Assembly: GCA_903889565.1 (NCBI GenBank)
Contig: CAISYC010000068.1
Location: 62,001 to 126,000 of the forward strand
DNA: 64,000 bases
Direction of reading: 5' to 3'
Origin: an uncultured beta proteobacterium
GTDB lineage: Bacteria > Pseudomonadota > Gammaproteobacteria > Burkholderiales > SG8-41
Shown in pieces: positions 45,662 through 63,124 of the stretch; positions within the stretch are counted from its first letter, which is position 1, and each line of letters opens with the position of its first letter. The position numbers and the translations under genes are program-made. Below the pieces are notes generated by a model. That model had not been told where the DNA came from. It ran no database searches and worked only from the letters and a program-made list of their open reading frames with translations.

Positions 45662-45737
45662 GTCCCCATCGTCTAGAGGCCTAGGACATCACCCTTTCAC
45701 GGTGAGTACCGGGGTTCGAATCCCCGTGGGGACGCCA
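45662..45737 (+). tRNA. tRNA-Glu(TTC), CCA encoded; integration site of the adjacent island
   Basis: GTCCCCATCGTCTAGAGGCCTAGGACATCACCCTTTCACGGTGAGTACCGGGGTTCGAATCCCCGTGGGGACGCCA; anticodon TTC. Confidence 0.96.
45690..45737 (+). repeat. attL: 48-bp tRNA-Glu 3' end
   Basis: caccctttcacggtgagtaccggggttcgaatccccgtggggacgcca, identical to 56698-56745. Confidence 0.93.
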
Positions 45738-45744
45738 ATTAAAA

Positions 45745-45784
45745 CAAGGCGTTAGAGCGATAAGTAACGGTTCTAACGGCCTTG
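45745..45784. other. Hairpin just inside attL
   Basis: CAAGGCGTTAGA (45745-45756) / TCTAACGGCCTTG (45772-45784), one bulged base; no T-run. Confidence 0.5.
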
Positions 45785-46388
45785 TGTCGCGGCCATGTCG
45801 CGCCACCCTCACCAAAAACGCGTTGAATTGAGCGAACGGCATACTGGCTGTTTTCGCGCGTGAGAAAAGAGCCGGTATCGATTGATGCCCGGTCTTTCCC
45901 ATCAACGCAACGTCGCGCTTTTACACAGCCATGCTGTCGCTGATGTTGACGACGACGTGCCGGTCGGCCCCTTGTTGCCCGCACCGTGCGAGTGATGCAC
46001 ACGAAGATGATGGACCGGTCGATACCCCGATCGCATTAACGGCATCGTCGTCGCGTCGTTGATCTTCAATGGACTTGGAACGCGCCACCGGTTGCCACAT
46101 CGGCATATCCGGTCGCGGATCACCGCTCAAACTGTCGCCGGCATCAACCCACGCAGTCACAGCCCGCAAGCGCGAAAACAGGCATACCATGGCCGCAGCG
46201 CGTCCGAATGAACGCGGCATATCGCGTCCTGACGCGTCAATTCTGACCCGATACCGTCGAATAGTAAGCGAATTGAGCAAAGACCCCTCAAAGATCAAAA
46301 GATGCACCGAGTGCAATCACCTGGTTGACGCGCCCACCATGCGTCCCTTGTCGCGCAATCAGAGTGGTGGTGGCGTCAGGAATGTATG

Positions 46389-46532
46389 CTGCGTATTCCG
46401 GACCATCGTGACCGGGGTTTCCGGAGGAACGTGACCGACGATTCCGTTTGATCGTGACCGGCCATTCCGTTCGATCGTGACCGATTTTGGGCTTGGCCCG
46501 GAATCACCGGTCACGATCAACGGAATACGCAG
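46389..46532. repeat. Miniature repeat element: four 23-bp tandem units plus one inverted copy, bounded by CTGCGTATTCCG inverted ends
   Basis: CGTGACCG at 46407, 46430, 46453, 46476 (exact 23-bp spacing), inverted CGGTCACG at 46508; ends CTGCGTATTCCG 46389-46400 and CGGAATACGCAG 46521-46532. Confidence 0.65.
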
Positions 46533-47116
46533 TATGCCCCGACTGTTACGCCCGCGTCATGGCGTTCAGGAAAGCGGTGCGCACCATTTAGCTTGTTCGG
46601 TCGGTCGGCGTTGCCCGATGAACCGATCGCGCGTTCGCTGCCAGTAATGGCCTCGTTGCGAAGAATTTCTTGTGGCTGCCGCCCCTCGCGAAGGAACTCG
46701 TGGGGGAGGGGGGCTACCAACCCGAAGGAAAAAAGCGAACCCCGCACCCCCTAACTAAGGTTCCATCCCACGCGGATAAACGCGGTAGGGGCCTCCTCAT
46801 TTCCGCGGCGGGTCGTTTTCTACGGCCGGCGGCGGTCGCTATAGCGGCGCGGCGCCTTGTTCTCCTGGGCCGACAGACACGACAATGATGCGTGAAGCAT
46901 GGGGTGCGCGACACGAATCGGGAAACCTACGACCCCGCATACAGACTTATTCAAGTGGAGTTACGAACTATTGAATCGGCGTAATATGTTTTGGGACGTT
47001 TTCGTAGCCCCGCGAGTTCGAAGAAAAATGTTAATTTCCTCCACTGACGCTTTCCGTTGGCGGCGTTCGCCCGCGCCAGATACCCGGCAACATGCCTCAT
47101 TAGGGATGTGTTCCTA

Positions 47117-47653
47117 ATGTTTAAAGAAATCGCATGCTTGGTAGCCGGATGCTTGGTGGGGTTCGGACTATTTTTCGCGTTGCAATCGTTCATTCCAGAG
47201 CCGACGTATCCTCATTGCCGCGATGGCTGGAATTCGCCAGCGATCGGCATACAAGGCGCATGTTCACACCACGGTGGCGTTGAAAGCCATGTAACAAAAA
47301 CTCACGACGCGCCTTTTTTAATCGGTAGCCTTCTTGCAGGACTCTTCACATACGTCGGACTACGTAGGCTGTTGGGAATCAATAAAACGCCGTCAAGGTC
47401 AGCCAAAACTATTCCCGATGCGGACGACAAAGAACGAATTATTCGCGACGCCATTGAAAATAAAAATAAAATTGAATTTCAATATTCAAAAAAGGGCGAA
47501 TCGATAAGCAGGCTAAGAACGATTAGGCCGACACGACTTGAATATATCGTTCCGCGCCGAAAAGAAACGCTATGCGTTGTAGGTCACTGCGATCTACGCA
47601 ACGCCCAGAGAAGCTTCGCTTTGATGCGGGTGAAAGACTTGAAAGTGTTGTAA
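47117..47653 (+). CDS. Two-TM protein with a CxDG...CSHHGGV loop and C-terminal WYL-like domain
   Basis: 178 aa; TM1 ACLVAGCLVGFGLFFALQSF, loop CRDGWNSPAIGIQGACSHHGGV, TM2 FLIGSLLAGLFTYVGL, C-terminal KNKIEFQYSKKGESISRLRTIRPTRLEYIVPRRKETLCVVGHCDLRNAQRSFALMRVKDLKVL. Confidence 0.65.
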   Translation: MFKEIACLVAGCLVGFGLFFALQSFIPEPTYPHCRDGWNSPAIGIQGACSHHGGVESHVTKTHDAPFLIGSLLAGLFTYVGLRRLLGINKTPSRSAKTIPDADDKERIIRDAIENKNKIEFQYSKKGESISRLRTIRPTRLEYIVPRRKETLCVVGHCDLRNAQRSFALMRVKDLKVL

Positions 47654-47710
47654 GGTATCAGTAGCCTAACGTGTTCGCGCCAAGGTCAGCAATGCCTTTG
47701 GAATAGACGA

Positions 47711-48182
47711 TTAACACACGCTATTGACCTCAAAGTAGTGTCTTAACCGTTCATATCGAGCAAGCAGTTTCCCGCATTGCTTTGCTTGCCATTGAGTAAT
47801 TTGATCGTCGATGAACTTGCGGGCGTCTGTGTAGACGGCATTTTCGATTTTTCCCGCAATGTGTTTCTTGAAGCCCGCCCCAAGGTAATCAATAATTATT
47901 GAGCCATCAGAGTCCTGTCCGAGTAATGTCAAACAAATAGCAGCCACTTCACGCGAGTAGGAAGTCGCGTGGTCGTCGCCTGACGACTCGGTCGTGGCTT
48001 TAAGAAAGCCAACGACGTGTTGCCCCGCCACAATTCTTGGATATTGGGATACTTTGCTTTCAAGGTGGTAGGCATTGGCGATGACGGGGCCGTATAGTTC
48101 ATTGTCGTTCAACTCAATGCCCCATGCGATATCGATGCCGCCGCGAATTGGTGTGCCGCGAGCCAAGCCGAGCAAGCAAAGC
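47711..48182 (-). pseudogene. 5'-truncated nucleotidyl cyclase-fold-like protein fragment (C-terminal part)
   Basis: GTPIRGGIDIAWGIELNDNELYGPVIANAYHLESKVSQYPRIV resembles the C-terminal half of class III cyclase-like proteins; N-terminal part of the open frame is antisense hsdR. Confidence 0.5.
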
Positions 48183-49085
48183 GACAACCCGGTAAGAGAC
48201 AAGGCGAAGCTGGTTGAGGAACTCCGCGGTGCGGTGAAGGCCGCGACGACGTTTTGCGCGACCAAGCGAGTCGATCTGCCGGCGATCGAGCAGTTGGCGG
48301 CAGGTAGTTTGGACCGATTGCAGCGGATTGACGATGCCGTTAATGCGCTGATTTCGCCTGATCCATTGCGCCGTGAGTTCCTTGGCCACTCCCGGCTGGT
48401 TGGCACGCTCTACAACGCCGTGAAGCCCGATCCCGCGGCCTTGGAGTTTGCCGGGCGCGTGGCCTGCCTTGCGGCGATTGCAGACGCCATTCAAACGAAG
48501 CTGAACCCCGACCCGGTGGACATTACCGCGGTCATGGGCGATATCGGCACCTTGCTTGATGATTCAATCGTTGGCGTAGGGATGCCCGCGAAGCCGGCGC
48601 CGCTGATGGACTTGTCGAAGATTGATTTCGAGGCACTGCGGAAGCGATTTAAAGAGTCAAAGCACAAGAACACCGACCTTGAAGTTCTCAAGGCCGCAAT
48701 CAGCGCGAAGCTGGAAAAGCTGATTAGCCTGAACAAGACGCGCGCCAACTTCGCGGAGTTGTTCGAAGAGTTGATCGAGTCCTACAACACTGGCAGCCGG
48801 AACATTGAAGAATTGTTGGAAGAGTTGATTAAACTCACTCAATCCCTTGATGACGAAGAACAGCGCCATGTCCGGGAGAATATGACCGAAGAAGAACAGG
48901 TCATCTTCGACATCCTGACGCGTCCGGCACCGGCGCTAAGTGCTGATGAGCGCGCCGAGGTCAAGAAGGTCGCCCGCGATCTGCTCGGCCGGCTCAAGGA
49001 ATTGCTGGTCCTAAACTGGCGGCAGAAATCGACCGCGCGTTCACAGTTAAAACTGGCCATTGAGGACGTGCTTGATACCGGGTTC
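48183..49085 (+). pseudogene. hsdR: Type I restriction enzyme R subunit, C-terminal fragment
   Basis: EELIKLTQSLDDEEQRHVRENMTEEEQVIFDILTRPAPALSADERAEVKKVARDLLGRLKELLVLNWRQKSTARSQLKLAIEDVLDTG; no helicase or nuclease domain upstream. Confidence 0.8.
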
Positions 49086-49228
49086 CAAAGGCGACCACGG
49101 CGTCCAAAATTCCTCCCACGATAGAAGGAATTAAAGCGAACGGTTATGATGGTGTCCTCCTACGGTAGTAGGAATCTCATCTTGGATACTTTCCCGAGGC
49201 GGGGAACGCAGGACACAAGGACAGGACA

Positions 49229-49606
49229 ATGAAGGTCGCTAATGCTGCATTAACGCTTTTCTTTCTCCCCCTCGTCGCATCGGCCGGTTGGTTCGGGCCG
49301 TCAAATTACGACGAGTGCATCCTCGAGAATATGAAAGGAGCAGCGAATAGGGAGGCGGCAATTATGATTAGGATGGCTTGCGAGCGGAAGTTTCCGGGGC
49401 CAGCACCGAAGGCCCAACCCGCGCCCCGACCAGTCGCTTGCGAGATATTTCAGCCGGAATCCGTGGATAAACAGGGGCGATCAGTCGCGAGTAGTTTCGT
49501 CACTACCGGGTGCGTGCCGATCAGCAAACAAGAACAACGTAAACTAAAGGCTGCCGGATTTGTGGAATTCAGAGACTTCACCCCTATTCCTGACGATGGC
49601 AAATAA
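49229..49606 (+). CDS. Small secreted protein with a cysteine-bearing ECILENMKGAANREAAIMIRMAC motif
   Basis: signal peptide MKVANAALTLFFLPLVASAG; 125 aa. Confidence 0.6.
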   Translation: MKVANAALTLFFLPLVASAGWFGPSNYDECILENMKGAANREAAIMIRMACERKFPGPAPKAQPAPRPVACEIFQPESVDKQGRSVASSFVTTGCVPISKQEQRKLKAAGFVEFRDFTPIPDDGK

Positions 49607-49615
49607 CGCCGCCAC

Positions 49616-50218
49616 ATGACCGAACCAGAACCAAAGGACAGGGAACCGGGGCCGGCCAAGGAAGAACAGTCGCAACAGTCTACTGGGCAACTGTTCGACC
49701 AAACGCAGGCCCAAGCCGATCTTGAGGCTGCGCTCGCCAACCTGCGGGAGTTATTCGGCATCGACGGCGCTAAGAAGATGGCGCCGAAGTTGAAGAAAAA
49801 GAAGTGTGCCTCCCCTCGGCCGATCAGAATCGCGCAATCAATCGTCCGCGAAACAATCGATCGGTTAAAGGCTATGACTGACTGCCGGATGTCGGGCGAC
49901 GACTCGGGGTTGGCAAACGTGTGGGAAGAAGTTTGCGTCCAGGTGCAGGGAGAACAGTCGATATTTTGGGGTGTGTATCTTGCGACGATTGACGCGCTTC
50001 TTGCGCCCGCGGTGCAAGCCATGGACCCGGTGGTTCGACACGCCTTATGGCTCAAGACCGAGGGCGGCCAAGATTGGAAATTCGATCACGACGACGAGGA
50101 CGATGTTGGGCCACCGACGTTCAACACGGACGACATCATTGAATACCTAAACGAGCGAGTGCTGACGGCAGCGGGGAACTTTGAGAACAGCGCCATCCGG
50201 CGCCATCGCGAGCGGTAG
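49616..50218 (+). CDS. Hypothetical protein
   Basis: 200 aa open frame starting 10 nt after the preceding gene, acidic C-terminal part; no family recognised. Confidence 0.5.
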   Translation: MTEPEPKDREPGPAKEEQSQQSTGQLFDQTQAQADLEAALANLRELFGIDGAKKMAPKLKKKKCASPRPIRIAQSIVRETIDRLKAMTDCRMSGDDSGLANVWEEVCVQVQGEQSIFWGVYLATIDALLAPAVQAMDPVVRHALWLKTEGGQDWKFDHDDEDDVGPPTFNTDDIIEYLNERVLTAAGNFENSAIRRHRER

Positions 50219-50288
50219 GGGTTTACGCTCGACGGCGGACGCGCACGCGCCGCAGAAGCTGGCGGCCGGGAGCCTGTTATCCTTACAT

Positions 50289-50795
50289 ATGACTAAAGAT
50301 AATGGCGACCCGCCGCCCGACGTTGCTGCCTTCATACAGTCGAGCGTCGAAGGGCGGTCACTTGCGGACGTTGCGCGGTGGTTGGCCGACAACGTGGCGC
50401 CCGCCGATAGGCCGACCGCGCTCAACGCGATAGACAATTTGAAAGCGCTTGAGCGATGCTGCGTTACCTTGAGTTTCCGCGTGGCGCACGTAACGGATCG
50501 TGTTCCAGTCGAACTTTTCACCGCTCGTAGCATCACGGCTTACACCTTCGGAAAAGCCATATCGTGCGTCGAAGTGTGGGTCAACGGGGCCGATGTCACC
50601 GGCAAGGTCGGGGTCAGCTATGAAACCCTTTTGAACGAACTTGTCCGCGCGTCCGCGCTAAGTGATGGGGCGGGGGTTCTGGTCGGCCCGGAGGTCGCCA
50701 CGGACGACAACCGTCGCGACCATAGCTATGTTGAGAATGTCGGAGGCAGGCATACCGTTGACCAACAGGCTGTTGGACAGACTGTGTTGACGTAG
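50289..50795 (+). CDS. Hypothetical protein
   Basis: frame 50181-50795, internal ATG giving MTKDNGDPPPDVAAFIQSS; no family recognised. Confidence 0.45.
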   Translation: MTKDNGDPPPDVAAFIQSSVEGRSLADVARWLADNVAPADRPTALNAIDNLKALERCCVTLSFRVAHVTDRVPVELFTARSITAYTFGKAISCVEVWVNGADVTGKVGVSYETLLNELVRASALSDGAGVLVGPEVATDDNRRDHSYVENVGGRHTVDQQAVGQTVLT

Positions 50796-50881
50796 CGGGT
50801 TCGTTGACTCAAGCTGTTGCCAAGTGGGCCGCCGGCGCTCACGGTTTGACGGCCCAGACCGCCACAAGGCTAACATTCTCG

Positions 50882-51355
50882 ATGAAACGATCGATACACG
50901 CTGTTGGTCTTTTCCTGTTCGTGCTATTGATAATGCCCGCTAGTGCCTTCGCACAGATTTTTGAGTGCGTCGACTCCGCCGGCAATATCGAATTCGCGCA
51001 GAAATGCTCGCCAGGCACCGTTAAACAAAGGGAGGTCGTGAACGCCGCGACGACCAATTCCAAGGGTGACAATGCGCAGCCGCAAAAGTCATATAAGGAT
51101 GAAGAGGCCGGCTTTCGCCAACGGCAATTAGAGCGTGAACAGGCCGACGCCAACGACGCGAAGGCAAGATCGGCAGCGGAAGCGGCGATCAAGAAATGCA
51201 AGGACGCTCAATCCAGGCATGTTGCTGTCGAAAATGCCCGGCGCTTGAGCGGGGGCATCGACCCGCAGACGGGCGAAAGAAAATTTCTTAACGATGATGA
51301 ACGGGCAGCGGCAACACAAAAGGCGCGTAACGAAGTCGCGAAGCTGTGTCAGTGA
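50882..51355 (+). CDS. Secreted DUF4124-like protein
   Basis: signal peptide MKRSIHAVGLFLFVLLIMPASAFAQ, then IFECVDSAGNIEFAQKCSPGT. Confidence 0.6.
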   Translation: MKRSIHAVGLFLFVLLIMPASAFAQIFECVDSAGNIEFAQKCSPGTVKQREVVNAATTNSKGDNAQPQKSYKDEEAGFRQRQLEREQADANDAKARSAAEAAIKKCKDAQSRHVAVENARRLSGGIDPQTGERKFLNDDERAAATQKARNEVAKLCQ

Positions 51356-51918
51356 TAGATAATGGTCAGTAGGCCCGTCGCCGCTCACGGTTTTACCGCC
51401 CCGATCACTACCAAGGAAACGAAATGCTCGAAAGATTGTTTGACCGCGCGGATGCCAAGAGCCGGCCGCCCTGGGACTGCATAAAGATAGACGACCCTTG
51501 GAGCGTCAACGCGGCCACCGCCGCGATCGCCGCGGCCAAAGCAGCGGAGCCGCCACCGGCCTCGACGTGGGGAGCGGCGATATGCGCCTGGTTTCGGGTG
51601 CGAGGCAACTGAAGACGGCACGCCAGCCGAGGCCCGTTCTCGGGGAAATCAGACGGAAGATTGGTATCAATCTAACCGCAAACCCGCATGGTTGTTAGCA
51701 TGTGGGGGATTTGGTTTTTCTCTCCCATGGGAATTCCGCTTGCAGTTCAGGCGGCCTGCCCATTGAGCAGGTGGCCCCAAAGGATACCTATAAAAACGGG
51801 GGGTTACGCGACGATGGCCGATGGCCATCAAACGCGGCCATGTTCCGTGTGCGCGACGCCGAACACCGATGCGTGCCGGGCGTGTCAGGCGTGGCCTGGG
51901 CGCACGGCCCGGCGCCGG

Positions 51919-52299
51919 CTAGGGCAACTGACTGAATATCTTGTCACGCATCGCTGTGAGCGCTTCGCGCGGCAACCGGCGCGGTAATTTATAGGCCACC
52001 CGTTTGACCGCGATGACGGGCGCAAGCGGAGCGATGGATGTAGCCGCCGGCGTGCGCGTAAATCGGATTTCGACCGGCTGCGCGCCCCGTTTGCCGGTCC
52101 GCTTCTTCAAAAGCACAATTTCGCCGCCCGCTACCATTTCGCCGAGAACGCCGTTGATGACCGCGCCCTTGATGCTGCTCGGCAGTCGCTCTCGAAGGTG
52201 CCAGCGCGGAACATCCCGCCCGGCGTAAATCCGCGCCAGGCTGGACAGGCCATCCCGCACGGCGCGGCGCTCTTCGGCGGGGGTGTTGCGGGTTTTCAT
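51919..52299 (-). CDS. Hypothetical protein downstream of the replication gene
   Basis: start CAT 52297-52299: MKTRNTPAEERRAVRDGLSSLARIY...; same strand as the Prim-Pol gene. Confidence 0.5.
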   Translation of the reverse strand: MKTRNTPAEERRAVRDGLSSLARIYAGRDVPRWHLRERLPSSIKGAVINGVLGEMVAGGEIVLLKKRTGKRGAQPVEIRFTRTPAATSIAPLAPVIAVKRVAYKLPRRLPREALTAMRDKIFSQLP

Positions 52300-52449
52300 T
52301 TTACGTCCTTTCAAATTCGGAAATGCGCCCATCTGCGCTGATGCGCGCCAATGCGCTGTTTCTTTGACATCGGCGCAGTTTGGCGCAGAGTGCGCGCCAA
52401 AGCGCGAACCATGCGTAGGGGGTATGGGGGATATAAGCGCGCGCACTTT

Positions 52450-54756
52450 TTACGCCCGAATGGCGCACTCGGCGTCCTGCTCGGCGGTGGCTTCTCGGTC
52501 GGCGTCGGCCACCTTTTCGACCGGCATTGGCGCAGGTGCCGGTTCCGGTTCCGGCGCACAAGTGAACACTGGACGCAGCTTTCGCTCGGCGTTTTTTACA
52601 TCGCGACGATAAATAAGGCCGGCATCCTCCGCGTCGCGAACCAAGCGGTCGAATCGGTCCTTCGCCACGCCCTTCGGAAACATCCGCTCATTTTTCAGAA
52701 GTTTGAACATGGTCGCCGGCCCCATGGTCGCCGCGGTTACAGGCTGGCCACGCCGGTCGAAGTCCTTGATCAGCGCAACGATCGCACCCATTTCCGTCTT
52801 GTCCTGGGTGGCCTGCGCCGCTTCGCGGATCGCCTTCGCCGCGTCGGCTCCGGCGGTCGGAACCGTGCCGGCGGGTAGCGGCACGCCATCCAGCCATACC
52901 AGACGTATCTCGTCACCCATCGGCCCGTAGTTCGCTTTCAGTGGCTGAAGAATCAGATTCGCGCCGTCGGCGAACAGACCGAGCCGCGAGCGGACGCTGT
53001 TATTCCACGCCGTGCTGCCCGAGTAGTCCTCGGAACCGGCACTTTTGCCCATCACGGCGCTCACCTTGCTTACGTGCGCGAGCAACAAGACCGCGCGATT
53101 AGGGCGGGCGATGCGCGTCCGCAAGGACCGAATGAACGTTCGCACCCTCGCGCGCACGATTTCATTGTCGTCGTAGGCATCACTGGCGTTGTCAACGATG
53201 ACCAGCCCCACATCGTGCCGCTTCACCTGATCTGCAAGTAATCCAAGCATCCGCGTTTCAAGTTCAATGGATTGACGACCGCCGACGCGCTGTTCGCGAT
53301 GTAGTGCAGGATCAAGGTCGCTGGCGTCGAGAAGATGGAGTTTTCCTTTTAGGTCGGCCACATCAACCTTCATCGCACGACAAATACGCGCTACCCGCTT
53401 GAGAAGGATCGACTTCCCGTCCTCGCAGGAATAAAACAAAACGCTTGCCTGCGTGGTTGCCAGCCCTGCAAATGACACGCCGAGAGCCACACAGATAGCC
53501 ATAACCAAAGCGACATAGGACTTACCGCTGCCGCCGTGGCCGGCCAGCAACGTGACCTCGCCCGCCGGTATTAACTTATCGATGTAGTGCGGTTCCGGTG
53601 CGTCAAGGTCGGCCGGATCATCAAGGTTGACTAGGTGCGCATCCAGATCAACGGGTTCCGTTGTTTCGCTTTTGGGCTGCGGTTCAATTGGAACTTTTTG
53701 GTTCGGATTATTCCTGTTGTGAGTGGCAACAACAGACGCAACAGTCGTTACCAACTCTGTTGCCGATAGCGGCGGACGGTTAGTCTCGTTCCACACCAGC
53801 ATTTGCGCCATTATCTCCGGCACCGAATAACCCCGATTGATAAGCGTGCCGACCCACGACGCGGCTGCGCCGTTCCTGCCGCCCTCGGCAACCGGGCTGC
53901 CGTCCGCCTTGGGCGCGTAGCTGCCGGCGTTGAACCCGTTCAGATTCCCCGCGCCCCCGCGCGGCTGTTCAGGGTTCGCCGCCTGCAAATTGCTGTGGCG
54001 ATACGCCTTCATGGCGTCGATGTCCGACTGTTGCAGCATCGGCAGATCGCACAGCGCCGCGGCGCCGATGCTTGGGTCGATGTCGTCGGTGTAGTAATTA
54101 CCGTTCGAGTGGCGCGAGCCGCCGGCCACGACGTATCCGCCCATGCCGCGCGTGTCCAGCTTGGCGAGCGGATCTGCACTATTGCGCACTTCGATGGCCG
54201 GATTCTCGCGGTAGTAGCTGTGTTCGCCCTTGCCGGTTTTAACGCGCCACGGCGTATAGGTCAGGTTCGCGCGGACCCATGCGACCGATTCGGCACAGTC
54301 CGCGTCCACAGCGACCAGCTTACCGGTGGCGATCCCGATGTTCGCGTCCGGCCATTGCGTCCACCAGCCACGAACAGTCTGTTCGTCTGCCGGCGCGGTC
54401 TGATACGCCTGCCAAGATACGCGCGGCGTCTTGGGCCACTGTTTTGTGGCCTCGGCCAGCGGATCTGCCTTGTCCTTGAACCGCTCGATGAAATACAGCG
54501 GCGGATGCTCGTTGTGGCCGCCTAACGGGAATATGTGAAAGCCGGCTTCGGCCAGATACAGCGCACGATCGAGCATCGATTGACGTTCGACGTTTGGTAT
54601 CGGCGGTGGGGGTATACACAGATTGGCATCCTGCGGTGTTACGGTGCCAGTTTCCCCAACATCAGGGATCGTGTTACTGTTCCATTGAGTTTGCTGTGCC
54701 GAACCTGGTAAGCGCCCGCCGGCGCTTCCAGGTTTTTTACTTTTGGTGGTCATCAT
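52450..54756 (-). CDS. Bifunctional primase/polymerase domain fused to RepA-like (RecA-fold) ATPase
   Basis: Prim-Pol: FHIFPLGGHNEHPP...WWTQWPDANIGIATGKLVAVDADC; ATPase: TLLAGHGGSGKSYVALVMA (Walker A), VGLVIVDNASDAYDDNE (Walker B), AVLLLAHVSK. Confidence 0.85.
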   Translation of the reverse strand: MMTTKSKKPGSAGGRLPGSAQQTQWNSNTIPDVGETGTVTPQDANLCIPPPPIPNVERQSMLDRALYLAEAGFHIFPLGGHNEHPPLYFIERFKDKADPLAEATKQWPKTPRVSWQAYQTAPADEQTVRGWWTQWPDANIGIATGKLVAVDADCAESVAWVRANLTYTPWRVKTGKGEHSYYRENPAIEVRNSADPLAKLDTRGMGGYVVAGGSRHSNGNYYTDDIDPSIGAAALCDLPMLQQSDIDAMKAYRHSNLQAANPEQPRGGAGNLNGFNAGSYAPKADGSPVAEGGRNGAAASWVGTLINRGYSVPEIMAQMLVWNETNRPPLSATELVTTVASVVATHNRNNPNQKVPIEPQPKSETTEPVDLDAHLVNLDDPADLDAPEPHYIDKLIPAGEVTLLAGHGGSGKSYVALVMAICVALGVSFAGLATTQASVLFYSCEDGKSILLKRVARICRAMKVDVADLKGKLHLLDASDLDPALHREQRVGGRQSIELETRMLGLLADQVKRHDVGLVIVDNASDAYDDNEIVRARVRTFIRSLRTRIARPNRAVLLLAHVSKVSAVMGKSAGSEDYSGSTAWNNSVRSRLGLFADGANLILQPLKANYGPMGDEIRLVWLDGVPLPAGTVPTAGADAAKAIREAAQATQDKTEMGAIVALIKDFDRRGQPVTAATMGPATMFKLLKNERMFPKGVAKDRFDRLVRDAEDAGLIYRRDVKNAERKLRPVFTCAPEPEPAPAPMPVEKVADADREATAEQDAECAIRA

Positions 54757-54759
54757 CGC

Positions 54760-54960
54760 TCACGCTCCCGCTCGAGCGATGGTCGTGATGCGCTCCATGT
54801 GCTTGCGCCAATCCTCGGCCGCGGCGACCGATATCAACGTGCGACGACCGACTTTCATGACAGTCGGGCCGTTACCGGATTTTAGAATGTTGTAAAAATT
54901 GGCTCGGCAGATACCGAAGGACGAGCAGAACTGCTTTACAGAAAGGGCGTTCGGGTTCAT
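54760..54960 (-). CDS. AlpA/excisionase-like helix-turn-helix protein
   Basis: start CAT 54958-54960; LSVKQFCSSFGICRANFYNILKSGNGPTVMKVGRRTLISVAAAEDWRKHME. Confidence 0.75.
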   Translation of the reverse strand: MNPNALSVKQFCSSFGICRANFYNILKSGNGPTVMKVGRRTLISVAAAEDWRKHMERITTIARAGA

Positions 54961-55281
54961 GCGTTTCTCCTTTTTTCTTTTTGTGGAGGCGACGCGAACC
55001 CAATTCGAAATCAATTGTTCGTGCGCACTCCCATCCATTTGCTGATGTTCATGGTCAATTCCCTTGCTAATGCCAAATAAGAATGTCTATCGGCGCGCAT
55101 CATAGGATCGAAATGACGGGTTGTGAAGAGGTAAATGCGAAATAATTCGTTTTTAGATTATTTTTTCGGACACCTACCATTTTTTTATATGACATCAGGG
55201 ATTTAGAAGAAGCGGCATAGACGAGGAGGCGAAAAAAAGGCGCGTGTCCGCGCCTTGGGTTTTGGTGCAGCAGAGCCTGGT

Positions 55282-56550
55282 TTAGGCCGCTGCCCGAATC
55301 TCCTCTTTCAATGTCGTTTCAAAACTGGGCAACTTGGTTACGGCAACAGCCAGTGTTGTGTCGGCAAGATGCGCGTAGTGCTTTGCTGTGATGCGTGTGT
55401 CCGAATGCCCGAGCAATTTTGAGATTGTTAGCAGATCGACGCCCGCATTGGCCAGATGCGACGCGTATGTATGGCGCAACTCATGAAAGGATACCATCGG
55501 CGTGACCTCGGCCACTTTGCAGGCCACCTTTAGGGCGCGCACATGATAGTTATGCCCCCATGCTTTGCCATCCTCACGAGTAAAAACGAGTTCATCGCCG
55601 GTCTTGCCGGTGAGGGCGTCGGTGAAGTGCGCCAGACCTTCGGGATTGAGCGGAACATGGCGCGGCTTTCCTGATTTTGATTCCGCGATGTAAATCTGCG
55701 CTTTTTTGAGATTTATATCTGCGACTTTCAGTGCTGCCAGTTCGCCGCGTCGTGCGCCTGTGAGCAGTGCAGCGCGCACAAGGGCGCGAAGGTCCGGTTG
55801 ACAGGCGGTAACAAGGCGCCCCCCCTCCGCGTCGGTCAGGAAGCGGATGCGTGCCTGATCGACGTTCTTATACGGTTTCACCTTTCGCCATGTGGCGTTG
55901 CTGGTTATGTCGCCATCGTTGAAGGCTTTATTTAGCATTGCCTTGAACACAGTCAGGATGCGATTAGCTGTGGACTTGCGCGCCATCTTGTCGGCTGCGG
56001 TTTTAGGTGCAGTGCGACGATTGATTTTCTTCCCAAACTTGCCGGTGCGAAGGCGGGCAGGTGTGGTCGCCAGTTTCTCCTGCCACTCTCGGATACCCTT
56101 GGTGGTCAGGTCGGCCAGTTTTTTCTCACCGAAGGCGGGAAGGATATGCGCGTTAATTGCGCTTTCAGCCATCGCGACACCTTTCTTGTTGACGCGAAAC
56201 CATGACAGGTAATTCTCGGCCGCTTCTTTGACGGTCATGTCCTTAATAAGCACGCCGTTCCGCAACTTGGCCTCGGTGTCCTTGTCCCTTGCCTTGGCCT
56301 GCGCTTCATAGAAAGTCAGCACTGTTACGCCGTCTGCGGGTTGATAGTCGTCGGCAGTTCCCAAGGCCCTCACGGCGTATTTGGTGTTCGGTAGGGCTAT
56401 CTTGACACTCCATGTGCCATAACCCTTGGCGGTGCGTCGGTATATGAGCGTCAGGCCGTCACCAATCTCACGGAAATACCGCTGTCCCGCGGTCAGGCGC
56501 AGACGCGCCGTTCGATTGTCGAGTTTTGCGTCGCGTGCTGATTGGGCCAT
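55282..56550 (-). CDS. int: Tyrosine recombinase (phage-type integrase)
   Basis: LLTGARRGELAALKVADI, HELRHTYASHLANAGVDLLTISKLLGHSDTRITAKHYAHL (R...H-x-x-R...Y); likely start MAQSARDAKLDNR within frame 55282-56607. Confidence 0.93.
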   Translation of the reverse strand: MAQSARDAKLDNRTARLRLTAGQRYFREIGDGLTLIYRRTAKGYGTWSVKIALPNTKYAVRALGTADDYQPADGVTVLTFYEAQAKARDKDTEAKLRNGVLIKDMTVKEAAENYLSWFRVNKKGVAMAESAINAHILPAFGEKKLADLTTKGIREWQEKLATTPARLRTGKFGKKINRRTAPKTAADKMARKSTANRILTVFKAMLNKAFNDGDITSNATWRKVKPYKNVDQARIRFLTDAEGGRLVTACQPDLRALVRAALLTGARRGELAALKVADINLKKAQIYIAESKSGKPRHVPLNPEGLAHFTDALTGKTGDELVFTREDGKAWGHNYHVRALKVACKVAEVTPMVSFHELRHTYASHLANAGVDLLTISKLLGHSDTRITAKHYAHLADTTLAVAVTKLPSFETTLKEEIRAAA

Positions 56551-56649
56551 TCCAGTCTCTCCGTATTGTCCGTGTCGCGGCCGTGTCGCGGCGACATACG
56601 AAAACAATGATAGACACCGGTAGGCTGTAAAGCAAGTAAAGACGAGGGT

Positions 56650-58326
56650 CTACAGGTAGTTATGTTGTATTCTGATGTCTACCGAAAACCGTTTTACCAC
56701 CCTTTCACGGTGAGTACCGGGGTTCGAATCCCCGTGGGGACGCCACTCAGGCACGAAGCTGGGCACCTCTCCCAGCTTCCCTTGTCTGGATAGCGTGACG
56801 GCGCGCGCCAGGGCGCCGTAGCTGCCCTTGATGTGCAGTTCGTTGCCGTCCAGCCGCACCTCATCGACCAGCAAATTCAGGTATGCCTTGCCGAATCCAG
56901 ACTCGGCATCCAGTAGCCGCTCCTTCAACGCCCGGGTGAATTTCGCGATGTGCGCGGTGGTGAGCTGGTTTGCCGACACATCCCATTTGTTCCGCAGTCC
57001 CGCTTGCGCGCTCAGAACGGCTTGCCGACGTGCCTGGAGCTTCTGCGAGCGTTCCTGCAGCGTTGTATCGAGCGGCAGCAGGCCTTTTTCGACCGCCTCG
57101 TAAAGGCGGGCAATTCCCGCGTCGACTTCCTTGAGTTCGCGTGTCAATTCCTGGAGCCGCGCGTCTTCGGTGCCGCGTGCTGCGCGCTGACGTTTGCGCA
57201 ATTCCCGCAGCATGATCTCGACCCGGGTCGGCGTGAACACCTTGTCGGCCAGCGTGGTCAGAACGATCTGCTCCGTGGTTTCCCGGCTCAGGTTGCGCCC
57301 GGTGCAGCGATTTACGCCCTTGTTCATTCGCGTCGTGCATTTGTAGTAGCGATACCGACCGCTCTTGCCGGTGGCCTGAGTCATGCCGGCGCCGCAGTTC
57401 CCGCATTTCATGAGCCCGACCAGCAGTGCCGGCGAGGCGAGCCGTTGCCCCGGTATCTGGCCGGGTTGTCGCGCGTGACGACGGGCCGCGATGCGGTCGA
57501 ATGTCCGCTGATCGACAATCGACGGCACTTCAACCTTGATCCACTCGCTCACGGCCTTTTGCTTGCGTGCGCGACACTCGATCCGGTTGAAATAGAACTC
57601 GCCGACGTAGACGTGATCGGAGAGGATCTGGTCTATTTTCTGAATCCGCCACGGCCGGCCACGAATCGTGATGCCCTGATCGTTCAGGTGGCCCGCAATA
57701 TTCTTCATGCCCATGCTGCGACCGGACCGGCCGTACAGATACAGGTCGTAGATCTTGCGTACGATTTCGGCGTCGACGGGGTCCACCTCAAGGCGGCGTT
57801 TCTGCTTGCCCCGCCGGCCGGTCACATCGACATCGACCACCCGATATCCGAACGGCGCGCGCGATCCGTTCCAGTAGCCCTGCCGTGCGTTCTCCTTCAT
57901 CGCGCGTAGCGTGTGTTTGGCGTTTTCCTTGCTCTGGTATTCGTCAAAGAGGCTGAACAGCTTCCGGGCCATCTCACCCGAGGGATCGTCGCCCGTTTGT
58001 TGTGTGATCGATATGACCTTCACGCCGGACGTCTTGAGTTTCCGCTCGTAGAGCCCGAATTCAAGGGCGTCGCGGAAGAATCGGGAGAGACTATGGACGA
58101 CGATGGCTTCAAACGGTGGTGGGGAAAGGGAGGCATCCCCGATCATTTGCTGGAACACCGGACGCCGGTCATCGGTGGCGGTTGCACCAGCCTCGACGTA
58201 TTCCGACACCAGGTGGTGATGCTGCGCCTTGCACCACTCGCGCAGTTGCCGCAGTTGATCGGGAATGGAGAGATCGTTCTCCACCTGTTTGCCCGTGGAC
58301 ACCCGGGCGTAAATCACCACGTCCAT
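56650..58326 (-). CDS. Large serine recombinase
   Basis: MDVVIYARVSTGKQVENDLSIPDQLRQL, VHSLSRFFRD, recombinase domain RAPFGYRV, zinc ribbon MKCGNCGAGMTQATG...YYKCTTRMNKGVNRCTGRN. Confidence 0.93.
   Translation of the reverse strand: MDVVIYARVSTGKQVENDLSIPDQLRQLREWCKAQHHHLVSEYVEAGATATDDRRPVFQQMIGDASLSPPPFEAIVVHSLSRFFRDALEFGLYERKLKTSGVKVISITQQTGDDPSGEMARKLFSLFDEYQSKENAKHTLRAMKENARQGYWNGSRAPFGYRVVDVDVTGRRGKQKRRLEVDPVDAEIVRKIYDLYLYGRSGRSMGMKNIAGHLNDQGITIRGRPWRIQKIDQILSDHVYVGEFYFNRIECRARKQKAVSEWIKVEVPSIVDQRTFDRIAARRHARQPGQIPGQRLASPALLVGLMKCGNCGAGMTQATGKSGRYRYYKCTTRMNKGVNRCTGRNLSRETTEQIVLTTLADKVFTPTRVEIMLRELRKRQRAARGTEDARLQELTRELKEVDAGIARLYEAVEKGLLPLDTTLQERSQKLQARRQAVLSAQAGLRNKWDVSANQLTTAHIAKFTRALKERLLDAESGFGKAYLNLLVDEVRLDGNELHIKGSYGALARAVTLSRQGKLGEVPSFVPEWRPHGDSNPGTHRERVVKRFSVDIRIQHNYL
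56698..56745 (+). repeat. attR: 48-bp duplicate of tRNA-Glu 3' end
   Basis: identical to 45690-45737; the rest of the tRNA is missing. Confidence 0.93.
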
Positions 58327-58336
58327 AGCACGCTCC

Positions 58337-58486
58337 TTAGTTCTCGGATGAATCGGCCTCGATCAGCAACTGGCGAAGGAGACCTGCGAAATGCGCTTGA
58401 ATGAGGTCGAGTTCCTCGCACGACACGGCGTCCTGCGGGATATCCAAGCTGAACTCAACCGAAACTTCAGGGTTCTGCGGTAGCAA
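58337..58486 (-). CDS. Small protein (49 aa) upstream of the serine recombinase, TTG start
   Basis: LLPQNPEVSVEFSLDIPQDAVSCEELDLIQAHFAGLLRQLLIEADSSEN; GGAGGT 9 nt before the TTG; below the ORF-track cut-off. Confidence 0.4.
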   Translation of the reverse strand: MLPQNPEVSVEFSLDIPQDAVSCEELDLIQAHFAGLLRQLLIEADSSEN

Positions 58487-58510
58487 TCATGCTCCACCTC
58501 CTTTCATTGC

Positions 58511-58873
58511 TCAAGTGGTCCTGCCCGGTCCGTGCCGTTCCTGCCCAGACTCGACGGGGATCGTGTCCAGATCCCTGATGAGCCCGGCTCTGCCAAATTC
58601 GTCCAGGATGAGCCGCCGGAACGCCTCGAACTGGTGTTCCGGAAGTGCCGCCTGCGCAATCAGCAGCACGCGGTTGAGCCGTGCGTTAACCAGCGGCAGA
58701 ATCGCTTCCTTGGTCAGCATGGCATTGCCCCAGTCGTATTCATGTCCAACCCCTTTCCGTCCTGTCAGCCGTTCCGCAATGGCGTTTCCCACCGCGTCGA
58801 GCGTGCATGCAAGTGGAGCGCCGCCCGCCACCGTGGAAAACGCCACAGAGTTCCGGATGGTCGGTGCAGCCAA
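58511..58873 (-). CDS. Hypothetical protein upstream of the serine recombinase
   Basis: 120 aa, same strand as recombinase; C-terminal HQFEAFRRLILDEFGRAGLIRDL. Confidence 0.45.
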   Translation of the reverse strand: MAAPTIRNSVAFSTVAGGAPLACTLDAVGNAIAERLTGRKGVGHEYDWGNAMLTKEAILPLVNARLNRVLLIAQAALPEHQFEAFRRLILDEFGRAGLIRDLDTIPVESGQERHGPGRTT

Positions 58874-59285
58874 ACTGCTATCCGCACATACACCGCCATC
58901 CCATTGCTTCCTTCTTGATACCGATGAATCGAGTCTTGTAGTTGCTGCGTTGTCGCCTTGCTACTGGTGTGTGTTGCCTGTCTGGTCAGTGTTGCTGTCC
59001 GTCTCGGCTGCGTATGCATACGAGATCTACAAGGGACACGGGACACCACGCCCGTTTCGTGCAAGGGTTTTGTTTCTTGCCAGCGCTGCACGGCGCTTTT
59101 GGTTTGGCGTCGATGGTCTTGCCTGTGGGCATTGCGAACACATCGAAGGCCCTTGACCCAGGGCCCACTGGGGCGTCGCAGGGACGCCGGGTACCAATCC
59201 GTGACGGGGATCATTCGGCGAGCGGCATTGCGCCACTTGCGTTACGGGTGGGATGACCGGTTTCCCGGTCATCGAAAGGCACAGA

Positions 59286-59326
59286 TCACCGACGCCGGGC
59301 AGCGCGAGCTGCTGGCGTCGGTGTTT
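59286..59326 (+). terminator. Strong hairpin followed by TTTT
   Basis: CACCGACGCC (59286-59295) / GGCGTCGGTG (59313-59322), then TTTT. Confidence 0.5.
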
Positions 59327-60073
59327 TACGCGCGTTCCATTTCAAGCGAACGCGCGTAGACCCGAGCGGATCCTGTGAGCTAAACACGAGTGTCCAGCGC
59401 ATGCGGAAGTGCATGGCCGGACTATGGGTGCGAACAAGAATCGTGAGGCGGGAGCGATCGCTACCAGTATCGGTAGACGTAACGTGCCCGCGCGCCGCGA
59501 TTGCATCGCAACGATGCCGCCTTTGAGGACGGCGATTGAGACGACTACGGCTGCCGACTGCTGACAGCCATTCGCTACTGACGAATATCCCCGAGCCTTG
59601 CGGCCACCGGCTTTCAGGGGATGAGGCCGGTTTTGGGCGCTCTTTCGAGCAAAGGACGATGCGTAACGGGCATCAACCGGGCTGACACAGCCAGCGCAAA
59701 TCCGAATTCACTGCCGCGCGTAGTTACGTCTGTGCTTTCTTAAAGACGGTATCGGATGATACTGGAACATCCCACTGTCCTGACCGCCGCGCGATTCCTT
59801 CTGTGACTAGGGAACCATGCTCCGAGTTCCGAAAAAATCGCAAAAATTGGCAATCCGATATATCGCAGTGTCAATTTCTAGGCCGAGAGCGAAATTTGCA
59901 GTCCGTCTGCCGCTGGATTGCAGTAGACGTGCAGTCAATATGCAGCATTATTGCAGCATCCTGGCAGCCGGGACCCGGTGGGTTGACTGATGGCAAGTCC
60001 CGATTCGTTACCGTCGAGGACGACTTCGCGCACGGTTGAATCATCACATTGAAAGCTGTCCAACGGACATCGA

Positions 60074-60307
60074 CTGCGCCAGAGCGCGGTCTATTGGATG
60101 AACCCTGCGCCAGTGGAACTAGGGTGCCGAATACGCCAGTTTTGAGCCCGTCACGTGAATCTGCAGGGAGTCGTCACTTGAAAAATCGGCCGTTTGGCTG
60201 CGCCAGTGCTGGATATCAGCGCCTCGTCACTACCGGTTAGCACCCGTAGTGACGATGCGCGTTGGCGCAGACCATTGGCGCAGGAACACGAGAAAATTCT
60301 GGCGCAG
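60074..60307. repeat. CTGCGCCA repeat array (three forward, three inverted copies) around a palindrome
   Basis: CTGCGCCAG at 60074, 60105, 60198; TGGCGCAG at 60263, 60276, 60300; CGTCACTAC (60225-60233) / GTAGTGACG (60246-60254) between the two groups. Confidence 0.65.
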
Positions 60308-60524
60308 AATGCGGTTTCCCCTGAGGCTGCCGCCCTCTTGCCTTAGAAATTCTGGTGCACGCAGCGTTGCGCGACGCCCAGGGCTGGTACACAGAACACG
60401 TTCCAGGCGCAAGGCATATTCGACGCGGCCATAGCCACGAAGCGCAAAGTACTACTTAAGGCCTAACTACCGGCTTGGTCGCAGTGCGTTAACCCAATCA
60501 GGAAATTTCTGTGAGGGAAACGTC

Positions 60525-60662
60525 ATGTCGATTGCGGATAGATGGGTGCGCGACAGGCCGCAAGAAGCGGTGCTGGAGACTGGACGCGCTGCACTGCCCG
60601 ATGACAAATTACTGACGAACTTTCTGCGCACACCGGCCGCGCAATTGCTGGCGGGGATGTAA
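60525..60662 (+). CDS. Possible small protein upstream of IS91 transposase (45 aa)
   Basis: ATG 60525 to TAA 60660-60662: MSIADRWVRDRPQEAVLETGRAALPDDKLLTNFLRTPAAQLLAGM; may be a remnant. Confidence 0.25.
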   Translation: MSIADRWVRDRPQEAVLETGRAALPDDKLLTNFLRTPAAQLLAGM

Positions 60663-60688
60663 GAGATCGCTGTCGGTAAGCGCGCATC

Positions 60689-62149
60689 ATGGGACAAGCG
60701 CTGCAGTCAGCGCCGGCTGGCCACCCTGCCGCCTTTTCGTACGAGCGGCGGCGCCCGGAAGAAACGACGCTCTATCAGGTGGTGCAGGAACAGTTGGAGA
60801 CCTTCCTCGCCGAGGTCGAAGCCAAGACCGGCGCGGGCTTGCCGGAGTTTGTCAAAGACGAGTTCGAGGCCTTTCTCGAATGCGGCATATTGGCGTATGG
60901 CTTTCTGAGGCTACGCTGTGCGGGCTGCGCGCATGAGAAGCTGGTGGCGTTTTCCTGCAAGCGTCGCGGTTTTTGCCCCTCGTGCGGTGCGCGGCGCATG
61001 GCGGAGAGCGCCGCGCACCTGGTCGACGAGGTGATCCCCCGCGTGCCGGTGCGGCAATGGGTGTTGTCGTTTCCAATCCCGCTGCGTATCCTGTTCGCGG
61101 CGCACCCCGAACTACTCACGCCGGTGTTGCGCATCGTCCACCGCGTCATCGCGAGGTTTCTGCTCAAGCAAGCGGGGCTGAAACGCGCCGCAGCCGACAC
61201 CGGCGCGGTCACGCTGATACAGAGATTTGGTTCAGCCGCCAATCTGAATATTCATTTGCATTGTCTGGTGCTCGACGGGGTCTATCGGCGCACGGAGGGT
61301 GAACCGGATTTCCAGGAGGCGCGCGCACCCAGCCGCGATGAATTAGCGGTTTTGCTCGAAAAGATCATCGCGCGCCTGCTGAAAATGCTGATCCGCCTGG
61401 GCCATCTGGTCGAAGAGGAGGGTGTGAGGTACATAGCCGACAGGGATGCGGACAATTCGTTGGCGTCATTGCAAGCTGCCTCCTGCACCTATCGGATTGC
61501 GCTGGGGCCGCGCGCCGGACAGAAGGTGCTGAGCTTGCGCACCGTGGCCGGCCGGAACGAGAAAACCACGACGGCCCTGTGCGCCGAAGCGCACGGCTTT
61601 AGCCTGCATGCCGGGGTGCGCTGTGGCGCCCATCAGCGCAAGGAACTCGAACGGCTGTGCCGCTACATCACGCGCCCCGCGATCGCCAACGAACGGGTGA
61701 AGCGCGATGGATCGGGGGATGTCGTGCTGCAACTCAAAAGCGCGTGGCGCGACGGCACCACGCACATCAGGATGTCGCCGCTGGAATTCATGCAGCGCCT
61801 GGCCGCGCTGGTGCCGCGTCCGCGCCTGCATCTGATCCGCTTTCACGGTGTGCTGGCCCCCAATGCCGGGTTGCGTGCCGCGATCGTGCCGGGCCCACCG
61901 CAGAAACCCGGCGATGATGCAGATCACCATGAGCACGGCGCGCCGGCGCGCATGGGCTGGGCGCGTTTGCTCAAGCGCGTGTTCGATATCGACCTCGAAC
62001 ACTGCCCGCAGTGTGGCGGCGACTTGAAGATCATCGCCGCGATCGAAGAGCCTGCGGTGATTGTCAGGATACTCACGCATCTGGGGTTGCCTGCACGCGC
62101 GCCGCCGCGCTCGCCGGCGCGGCCGCTGGATCTCTTCCAGGCGGCCTGA
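60689..62149 (+). mobile_element. IS91-family transposase gene
   Basis: 486 aa; zinc-finger CAGCAHEKLVAFSCKRRGFCPSCGARRMAESAAHLVDEVIPRVPVRQWVLSFPIPLR, HUH-like NIHLHCLVLDGVY, ITRPAIANERV, C-terminal HCPQCGGDLKIIAAIEEPAVIVRILTHLGL. Confidence 0.92.
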
Positions 62150-62426
62150 TCCTCACGACAAGAGCGGTTCTGCAGCGGGGCTGACGATCCCGCGCGGCCT
62201 GCGCTCGCGTGAAGCGGTCGGAGTGAGGCGATTTGGGACGATGTAGGGCTCAAATAGGCATCGCGAGCGGGGAATTATCGGGGAATTTTCAGCAATTACC
62301 GTCCGATTGACCGCTTGTCGGGCCGGCGATATAGTCGCGGACAGTCAAAAGAGGCGTTTAAATTTCCTATTCGCTATTCGCCGTGTAGAATTCGTCCGAG
62401 AACGCATTCGATCCTCAAGGTACAGC

Positions 62427-62648
62427 GTGATCCGAAAAATTGAAGCCGTGGTTGACGAGCAAGGCACTGTCCGCCTGAAGGAGGCGGTCCGGCTGGTGGC
62501 GCCGCGGCGCGCGGTCGTCACGATCTTCGACGAGGATAGGGCCGGCCAGGTTGGCGAGGCCACCCTGCTCAGCGAACCGGCCCTTGCTCAGGACTGGAAT
62601 CGCCCTGAAGAGGACGCCGCGTGGTCGCACCTTCAGTCGGCTCGGTAG
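62427..62648 (+). CDS. Antitoxin of a type II toxin-antitoxin pair
   Basis: GTG start; VIRKIEAVVDEQGTVRLKEAVRLVAPRRAVVTIFDE...EEDAAWSHLQSAR; overlaps the toxin gene. Confidence 0.7.
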   Translation: MIRKIEAVVDEQGTVRLKEAVRLVAPRRAVVTIFDEDRAGQVGEATLLSEPALAQDWNRPEEDAAWSHLQSAR

Positions 62649-62962
62649 TACTCGTTCCTTTCCCGTTTTCCGACCTCTCTCAGAGCAAGCTACGCCCCGC
62701 CGTCGTGCTCGCCGCTGTCGGTCGCGGCGATTGGATTCTGTGTCAGGTAACCAGCAGTCCATATGCAGATGCGAATGCCATAAGGCTCACGAATTCTGAC
62801 TTCGAAAAAGGCTCCCTCCGCGTCGTCAGCTACGCGCGGCCCGGCAAACTGTTCACTGCCAATCAGGAACTGCTTGTGTCGGAGGTCGGCATTCTGAATG
62901 ATAAGGCGTTTAACCGCCTGCTTGACGCGGTCGTCGGCGTTCTCCGTCCCACGGGAAAATAG
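62621..62962 (+). CDS. MazF/PemK-family toxin
   Basis: VGSVVLVPFPFSDLSQSKLRPAVVLAAVGRGDWILCQVTSSPYAD; start within the antitoxin gene. Confidence 0.85.
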   Translation: MVAPSVGSVVLVPFPFSDLSQSKLRPAVVLAAVGRGDWILCQVTSSPYADANAIRLTNSDFEKGSLRVVSYARPGKLFTANQELLVSEVGILNDKAFNRLLDAVVGVLRPTGK

Positions 62963-63046
62963 AGGCATCCCGGGAACTCACTACTCGACCGATAGAACCT
63001 CGACCCAGTGCCCACCTTCATCCCCTTCGGCACGCCAAAACAAAAC

Positions 63047-63069
63047 AGCCACTGCGAGGTGGCTTTTTT
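63047..63069 (+). terminator. Rho-independent terminator
   Basis: AGCCAC (63047-63052), loop, GTGGCT (63059-63064), T-run. Confidence 0.7.
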
Positions 63070-63124
63070 GTTTCAGGATTTTCATGTCAGTGTTCGCGCA
63101 TCGCGTTGATGAGGCGGGCGCCGG

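Follow-up and report, generated by a model that had tools for sequence, protein, structure and literature searches.

Several integrases are already known whose C-terminus is altered by integration, namely those of phage Mx8, the streptococcal rumA ICEs and the DsiB recombinase. As far as the accounts in PMC4383910 and PMC4701971 go, attP of Mx8 lies inside the integrase gene, integration replaces 112 C-terminal residues by 13, and the integrated form of the enzyme is less active. In the serine integrases of the rumA ICEs, the att site also lies inside the gene, and a reciprocal 3' exchange with the target alters the C-terminus (PMC4701971). The gene of DsiB, a CcrB-like serine recombinase of the Dehalococcoides ssrA islands, overlaps both attL and the RNA gene at its 3' end, and its stop codon is located only outside the island; the authors of that study suggested that full function of the protein may be limited to the circle (PMC3146451).

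According to the Islander paper, the recombinases known to target tRNA genes were all of the tyrosine type and none of the serine type (PMC4383910), and a 2021 Mesorhizobium survey reported six serine-recombinase elements among tRNA and other sites, leaving unstated which sites these were. Our literature search, in which subscription journals were thinly covered, retrieved no description of a family of serine recombinases that occupies the CCA ends of tRNA genes of many isotypes, nor of a conserved tail that is lost on integration; both the tRNA-targeting serine family and the conserved lost tail look new. Here we analyze such a recombinase in a 64,000-nucleotide stretch of DNA from an uncultured beta proteobacterium (hereinafter, the window) and compare it with its relatives.

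Organization of the locus

The locus consists, in this order, of tRNA-Glu, an 11-kb tyrosine-integrase island, a tRNA fragment, the serine-recombinase element and the native terminator. The tRNA-Glu(UUC) gene (45662-45737, plus strand; predicted by ARAGORN) is the apparent target of both elements. Its 3' part is the first copy of a 48-bp repeat (45690-45737, plus strand), the second copy of which (56698-56745, plus strand) would hold the B half-site of the serine element. The block is present in exactly two copies in the window, with 0 expected in shuffles, and a whole-genome BLAST search with the tRNA as the query yielded matches only at these two places. The island between the copies (45738-56697, no strand assigned; about 11.0 kb per repeat unit) has the composition of a tRNA genomic island, that is, a tRNA, a displaced 3' fragment and, between them, a tyrosine integrase (PF00589; 55282-56607, minus strand). 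Its cargo includes a protein with a type I restriction-enzyme C-terminal domain (48075-49124) and a Prim-Pol/AAA protein (52450-54756). In a genome of the same genus (locus L022), the same tRNA-Glu block is accompanied by a related integrase (62%), with no serine recombinase present.

The serine recombinase (558 aa; 56650-58326, minus strand) belongs to an element of 6,292 bp core to core (56746-63037, minus strand). This element also encompasses an IS91-family Y2 transposase (60689-62149) and, near its far end, an ORF for a PemK/MazF-like toxin (62621-62962), upstream of which lies a small ORF (62307-62648) that may encode the antitoxin. The intrinsic terminator that follows (63038-63073, plus strand) is the displaced native 3' flank of tRNA-Glu, now about 17 kb away from it; in relatives, a similar terminator is located directly after tRNA-Glu. 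The flank of the tRNA-Glu genes of sister genomes is absent from the genome of the window. ARAGORN additionally called a tRNA-Tyr inside the recombinase coding sequence (56783-56857), which does not coincide with an att end and which we dismissed as a false positive.

Stacking of the two kinds of elements is not confined to the window: at locus L075, tRNA-Glu is occupied in the same arrangement by a serine recombinase together with a related tyrosine integrase, and further stacked islands occur at tRNA-Asn. The 45-nt tRNA-Asn blocks found beside some of the recombinases (L007, L044, L056, L086) were considered as attP of the serine elements and rejected; these blocks represent stacked islands because full tRNAs lie beyond some of them and tyrosine integrases beside others (L048, L086, L075). 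In Azonexus (L281/L314; G061:C10:225866-244242), a 5.3-kb insertion encoding a DUF4325/HATPase protein, without a recognised integrase, is located between a full tRNA-Asn and a 45-nt tRNA block that adjoins a second copy of the serine element.

The serine recombinase ends in antisense tRNA

The recombinase contains the domains of a large serine integrase in the expected order (Resolvase, PF00239; Recombinase, PF07508; Zn-ribbon, PF13408), and the active-site S10 and R8 are present and invariant in 37 relatives. It misses the CcrB equivalog score that defines membership in SCCmec CcrB (131.5 bits vs 900). Translation of 56650-58326 on the minus strand yields a protein that ends with EWRPHGDSNPGTHRERVVKRFSVDIRIQHNYL and a stop. 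Codons 528-543 (WRPHGDSNPGTHRERV) are the second 48-bp copy read on the minus strand, with W528 being the antisense of the tRNA CCA, and residues 544-558 are encoded by the island (56697-56650, including the stop). When the island was removed in silico, by joining the tRNA (45662-45737) to position 56746, the ORF ended with RERVMS and a stop; an 81%-identical homologue adjoining an intact tRNA-Glu (L034) ends with WRPHGDSNPGYRRERAMS (RERAMS and a stop).

These results bear out the central proposals of an earlier, sequence-only reading of this locus: the last codons of the recombinase are antisense tRNA-Glu, in frame; the tRNA 3' end serves both as att DNA and, in antisense, as coding sequence; the frame at attL continues as MS-stop; and the island exchanged this ending for 15 other residues without breaking the frame. 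The 48-bp block does make 16 codons, as that reading stressed, but the exactness merely reflects the divisibility of 48 by 3, and the identification of the block as an att core holds for the tyrosine-integrase island, whereas the crossover of the serine recombinase appears to fall within the first bases (TGGCGT). The family-wide architecture, the recombinase's own target and the distant, apparently selected tail had been missed.

The ending in tRNA is common to the family. In 60 of 90 homologous loci, an intact tRNA gene is entered in antisense, always with the Trp codon (TGG) exactly opposite CCA; in another 21 it is a tRNA fragment, and 9 loci show neither. Homologues stopping before WRPHGDSN, which would have reduced the tail to accidental read-through, are thus not what is seen: they run into the tRNA. 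The 60 intact targets are tRNA-Asn (23), Arg (17), Glu (10), Ser (6), His (2), Ala (1) and Leu (1). The motif W-x-x-x-x-D-S-N corresponds to anti-CCA, anti-acceptor stem and anti-T-loop, so that the DSN/GSN-type tails seen in this family are accounted for as tRNA translated in antisense. In 52 of the 60 loci, the stop is inside the tRNA, and the tRNA-derived tails, from 3 (WGG and a stop) to 128 residues long, end wherever the tRNA offers a stop; as a protein sequence, this tail is not conserved. A tree of 80 recombinases requires at least 12 changes of target isotype, compared to 33.6 changes in shuffles, and the frame is unchanged, so that target choice tracks the recombinase lineage. In a broad control sample of 88 PF07508 proteins from the phylum, a tRNA ending was seen in only 3, of which two are family members by their tails, and the generalization that all PF07508 recombinases end in tRNA was rejected on this count.

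The genome of the window contains a second family member (L028; G000:C32:136-969), which terminates in tRNA-Arg(acg) with WRARQDSNLLPLGS and a stop, and is cut by a contig end. Three more distant serine recombinases (L011, L030, L168) run in antisense into tRNA-Met, using the two frames not found in the family, with tails that end in GDRI, GFEPTTFGL and GLEPPTPGL, each followed by a stop; the tRNA overlap thus seems to have arisen in other serine-recombinase subfamilies, too.

Target and crossover point

Comparison of occupied and empty sites indicates that the tRNA is the attB of the serine recombinase itself. In Sinorhizobium meliloti ml21, pSymB carries a 38,553-bp element (core to core) in tRNA-Arg(CCG), for which ml59 provides the empty site. 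The left end, the right end and the empty site have only TGGCGC in common, beyond which the left end continues as element DNA and the right end as host tRNA. On pCAV1668-85, a family relative interrupts istA of IS1326 with about 23.9 kb; with the intact istA of R100 as the reference, a T/C difference shows that the crossover lies past the fourth base, in TGGC. The ends of this element were taken from the comparison with the intact istA, the automatic far-end search having missed them. Together, the two pairs point to a crossover at core bases 5-6. A third relative ends in merA. The TGG is therefore borne by the element, even when the target is not a tRNA. In the window element, homology to the pairs from S. 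meliloti and IS1326 assigns the core on the recombinase side to TGGCGT at 56740-56745 (minus strand), with the crossover probably in its last bases. As judged from the occupied and empty pairs of relatives, which share 5-6 bp, the recombinase would join attP to attB over a short core with different flanks, in the manner of large serine integrases.

The family member in L151/L154 (NZ_CP011583.1) forms the end of a 23.9-kb element inside IS1326 that encodes floR, tet(G) and trb conjugation genes and is found on clinical Enterobacter/Klebsiella plasmids; the family accordingly also carries resistance cargo.

The recombinase gene overlaps a predicted attP

Third codon positions are constrained just before the TGG: compared to the rest of the same genes, Val is encoded by GTG in 86% vs 33%, Pro by CCC in 96% vs 25%, and Ser by AGT in 59% vs 8%. 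The codons preceding TGG comprise a conserved DNA arm, GTGCCCAG.TTTGT, an inverted copy of which is present at the far end of the elements. It appears that the recombinase gene overlaps its own attP and that these codons are, at least partly, conserved as the DNA site of the recombinase. In the window, the putative arm GTGCCCAGCTTCGTGCCTGAG (56746-56766, minus strand) lies within the coding sequence, directly preceding TGG, and was called from the third-position constraint together with the mirror copy at the far end. The far end itself, TGGCGTGCCGAAGGGGATGAAGGTGGGCAC (63008-63037, minus strand), combines the core, a stretch resembling the tRNA-Glu end at 15 of 18 positions and then the mirrored arm; it was found with a loose whole-genome pattern, a search of the window for the exact arm having given nothing. 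Across the family, far ends were mostly not found by tRNA similarity alone because the tRNA-like stretch there is only about 18 bp, whereas the search for the mirrored arm succeeded.

The attP sites are reconstructions. Four of them share one centre of symmetry, which is the fifth base of TGGCN: that of S. meliloti with 15 consecutive arm matches, those of two tRNA-Asn elements (4,389 and 4,819 bp) with the same centre, and that of the window with a symmetry equaled in 6 of 20,000 shuffles.

A conserved tail encoded on the circular form

The circular form was rebuilt by joining the far end to the core. Far ends were picked by DNA only (6/6 core matches and at least 12 of 23 inverted-arm matches), which resulted in 22 elements, about half of the fetched upstream stretches containing no convincing far end. 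On the reconstructed circles, the recombinase continues into a tail that starts with W and then R, L or C, followed by an acidic or polar middle, W or Y, a hydrophobic stretch and a stop. The tail of the window element is WRAEGDEGGHWVEVLSVE (62981-63037, minus strand; in the recombinase frame only after excision), and others are WRATADEDGHYSFAVAL, WLTKTDKTGNWIIKILV and WLPELGKSGHWLEVLRMP, each with a stop. An in-frame stop after 17-23 residues is found in 21 of the 22 elements, which are related so that these counts are not independent, compared to three in frame +1, none in frame +2 and 13% at other core sites. Codon 11 encodes an aromatic residue in 21 of the 22 (7% at other core sites), and codons 15 and 17 encode hydrophobic residues in 91% and 95%, respectively. 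In seven close pairs, nucleotide identity is 81% in codons 11-17 vs 27% past the stop, with 10, 5 and 13 differences at codon positions 1, 2 and 3, a weak test given only 7 pairs. Codons 7-10 coincide with the DNA arm, and most of codons 11-17 are outside of it; the far-end scoring window reaches approximately codon 11-12, and part of the similarity in codons 7 to 11 can be DNA-level.

The coding sequence of the selected-looking C-terminus thus lies 6.3 kb off, at the opposite end of the element, and only the circular form allows it to be read. We conclude that the C-terminus under selection is probably the one encoded by the circle, for which integration would substitute antisense tRNA, and we infer that the circular tail is functional as protein. 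For tool builders, a genome annotation would then give the ORF a wrong C-terminus, and the circular-form tail would be the one to test. One chromosomal recombinase (L343; G207:C45:139643-141262) has a circular-type tail, WRASPNKTANTYVIEIALCSQ and a stop, perhaps due to the adjoining far end of another element.

Alternative explanations

Some of these observations could be accounted for by geometry alone, if the protein functionally ended at about residue 500-527 and the att DNA beyond it simply lacked stops, leaving both tails inert. Known family profiles indeed end at residues 496-503, the tRNA tails vary from 3 to 128 residues, and DNA-level constraint is clear up to the TGG. The circular tails, however, keep the aromatic residue, the hydrophobic residues and the stop position past the DNA arm and in one frame only, and their similarity drops to chance directly after the stop, which makes this reading rather unlikely.

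The frame relative to CCA, which is the same in all members through at least 12 changes of target isotype, could suggest that the peptide read from antisense tRNA (WRPHGDSNPGTHRER...) is under selection as a functional C-terminus of the recombinase. Yet the frame at the tRNA is fixed because the element's own TGG core sets it, including at the non-tRNA targets in IS1326 and merA; the tail may consist of WGG and a stop alone, and the two remaining frames are used by other serine recombinases that run into tRNA-Met. We consider such a role highly improbable. There is hardly any probability left for a chromosomal or decayed bystander gene beside tRNA-Glu, its tail an accidental read-through from the tyrosine island: tRNA genes are hot spots of integration in general, and the island is genuine, but homologues abut tRNAs of many isotypes in a base-exact geometry with no island between them, the window holds both the far end and the displaced terminator, and the tail is older than the island, as L034 indicates. 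The comparative data refute the bystander gene, unless the far end at 63037 is spurious.

Proposed mechanism

The account that we favor, and consider very probable, draws on the targets, the core, the symmetry of attP, the empty sites and the conserved in-frame tail of the reconstructed circle, all of which are sequence evidence. The recombinase would be the integrase of a small mobile element, with an attP that overlaps the 3' end of its own gene and recombines with tRNA genes (tRNA-Glu in this case) at their CCA end, the crossover falling just past TGG. As long as the circle is free, the ORF would run through attP into a tail of approximately 17-23 residues that closes with a stop of its own; once the element is integrated, all DNA past the core would belong to the target, and the gene would end in antisense tRNA with a stop set by the tRNA. 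A tyrosine-integrase island appears to have later used the same tRNA, slipping between the tRNA and the recombinase and putting 15 residues in place of MS-stop while keeping the 48 bp at the serine core. Because the island left all 48 bp beside the core intact, the serine half-site should still be usable.

By analogy with Mx8, loss of the tail might lower or redirect the activity of the integrated recombinase. More tentatively, and leaning slightly against it ourselves, we raise the possibility that a widespread integrase family deletes a selected tail on integration and so exists in two forms, a hard-wired switch without a regulator. If so, the circle-encoded form would be integration-competent and the tRNA-tailed form would have lower or altered activity. 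This makes testable whether a serine integrase controls itself by losing a short C-terminal peptide on integration.

Comparison with known systems

As in the case of DsiB, the 3' end of the gene in this family overlaps att and an RNA gene, and the integrated gene has no stop of its own. Unlike DsiB, which targets a single tmRNA gene, ssrA, and for which no conserved circular tail has been described, the present family hits many tRNA isotypes with base-exact CCA geometry and has reconstructed circular tails. The Mx8 integrase is a tyrosine recombinase, whereas here a serine recombinase with a short tail is involved; the target of the rumA ICEs is a protein gene, in contrast to tRNA genes read in antisense. 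The outer 11-kb island is of the Islander type, a tRNA-gene island with a tRNA, a displaced 3' fragment and a tyrosine integrase (PMC4383910), from which the inner 6.3-kb element differs in being serine-type and in having a far-end repeat that is short and imperfect.
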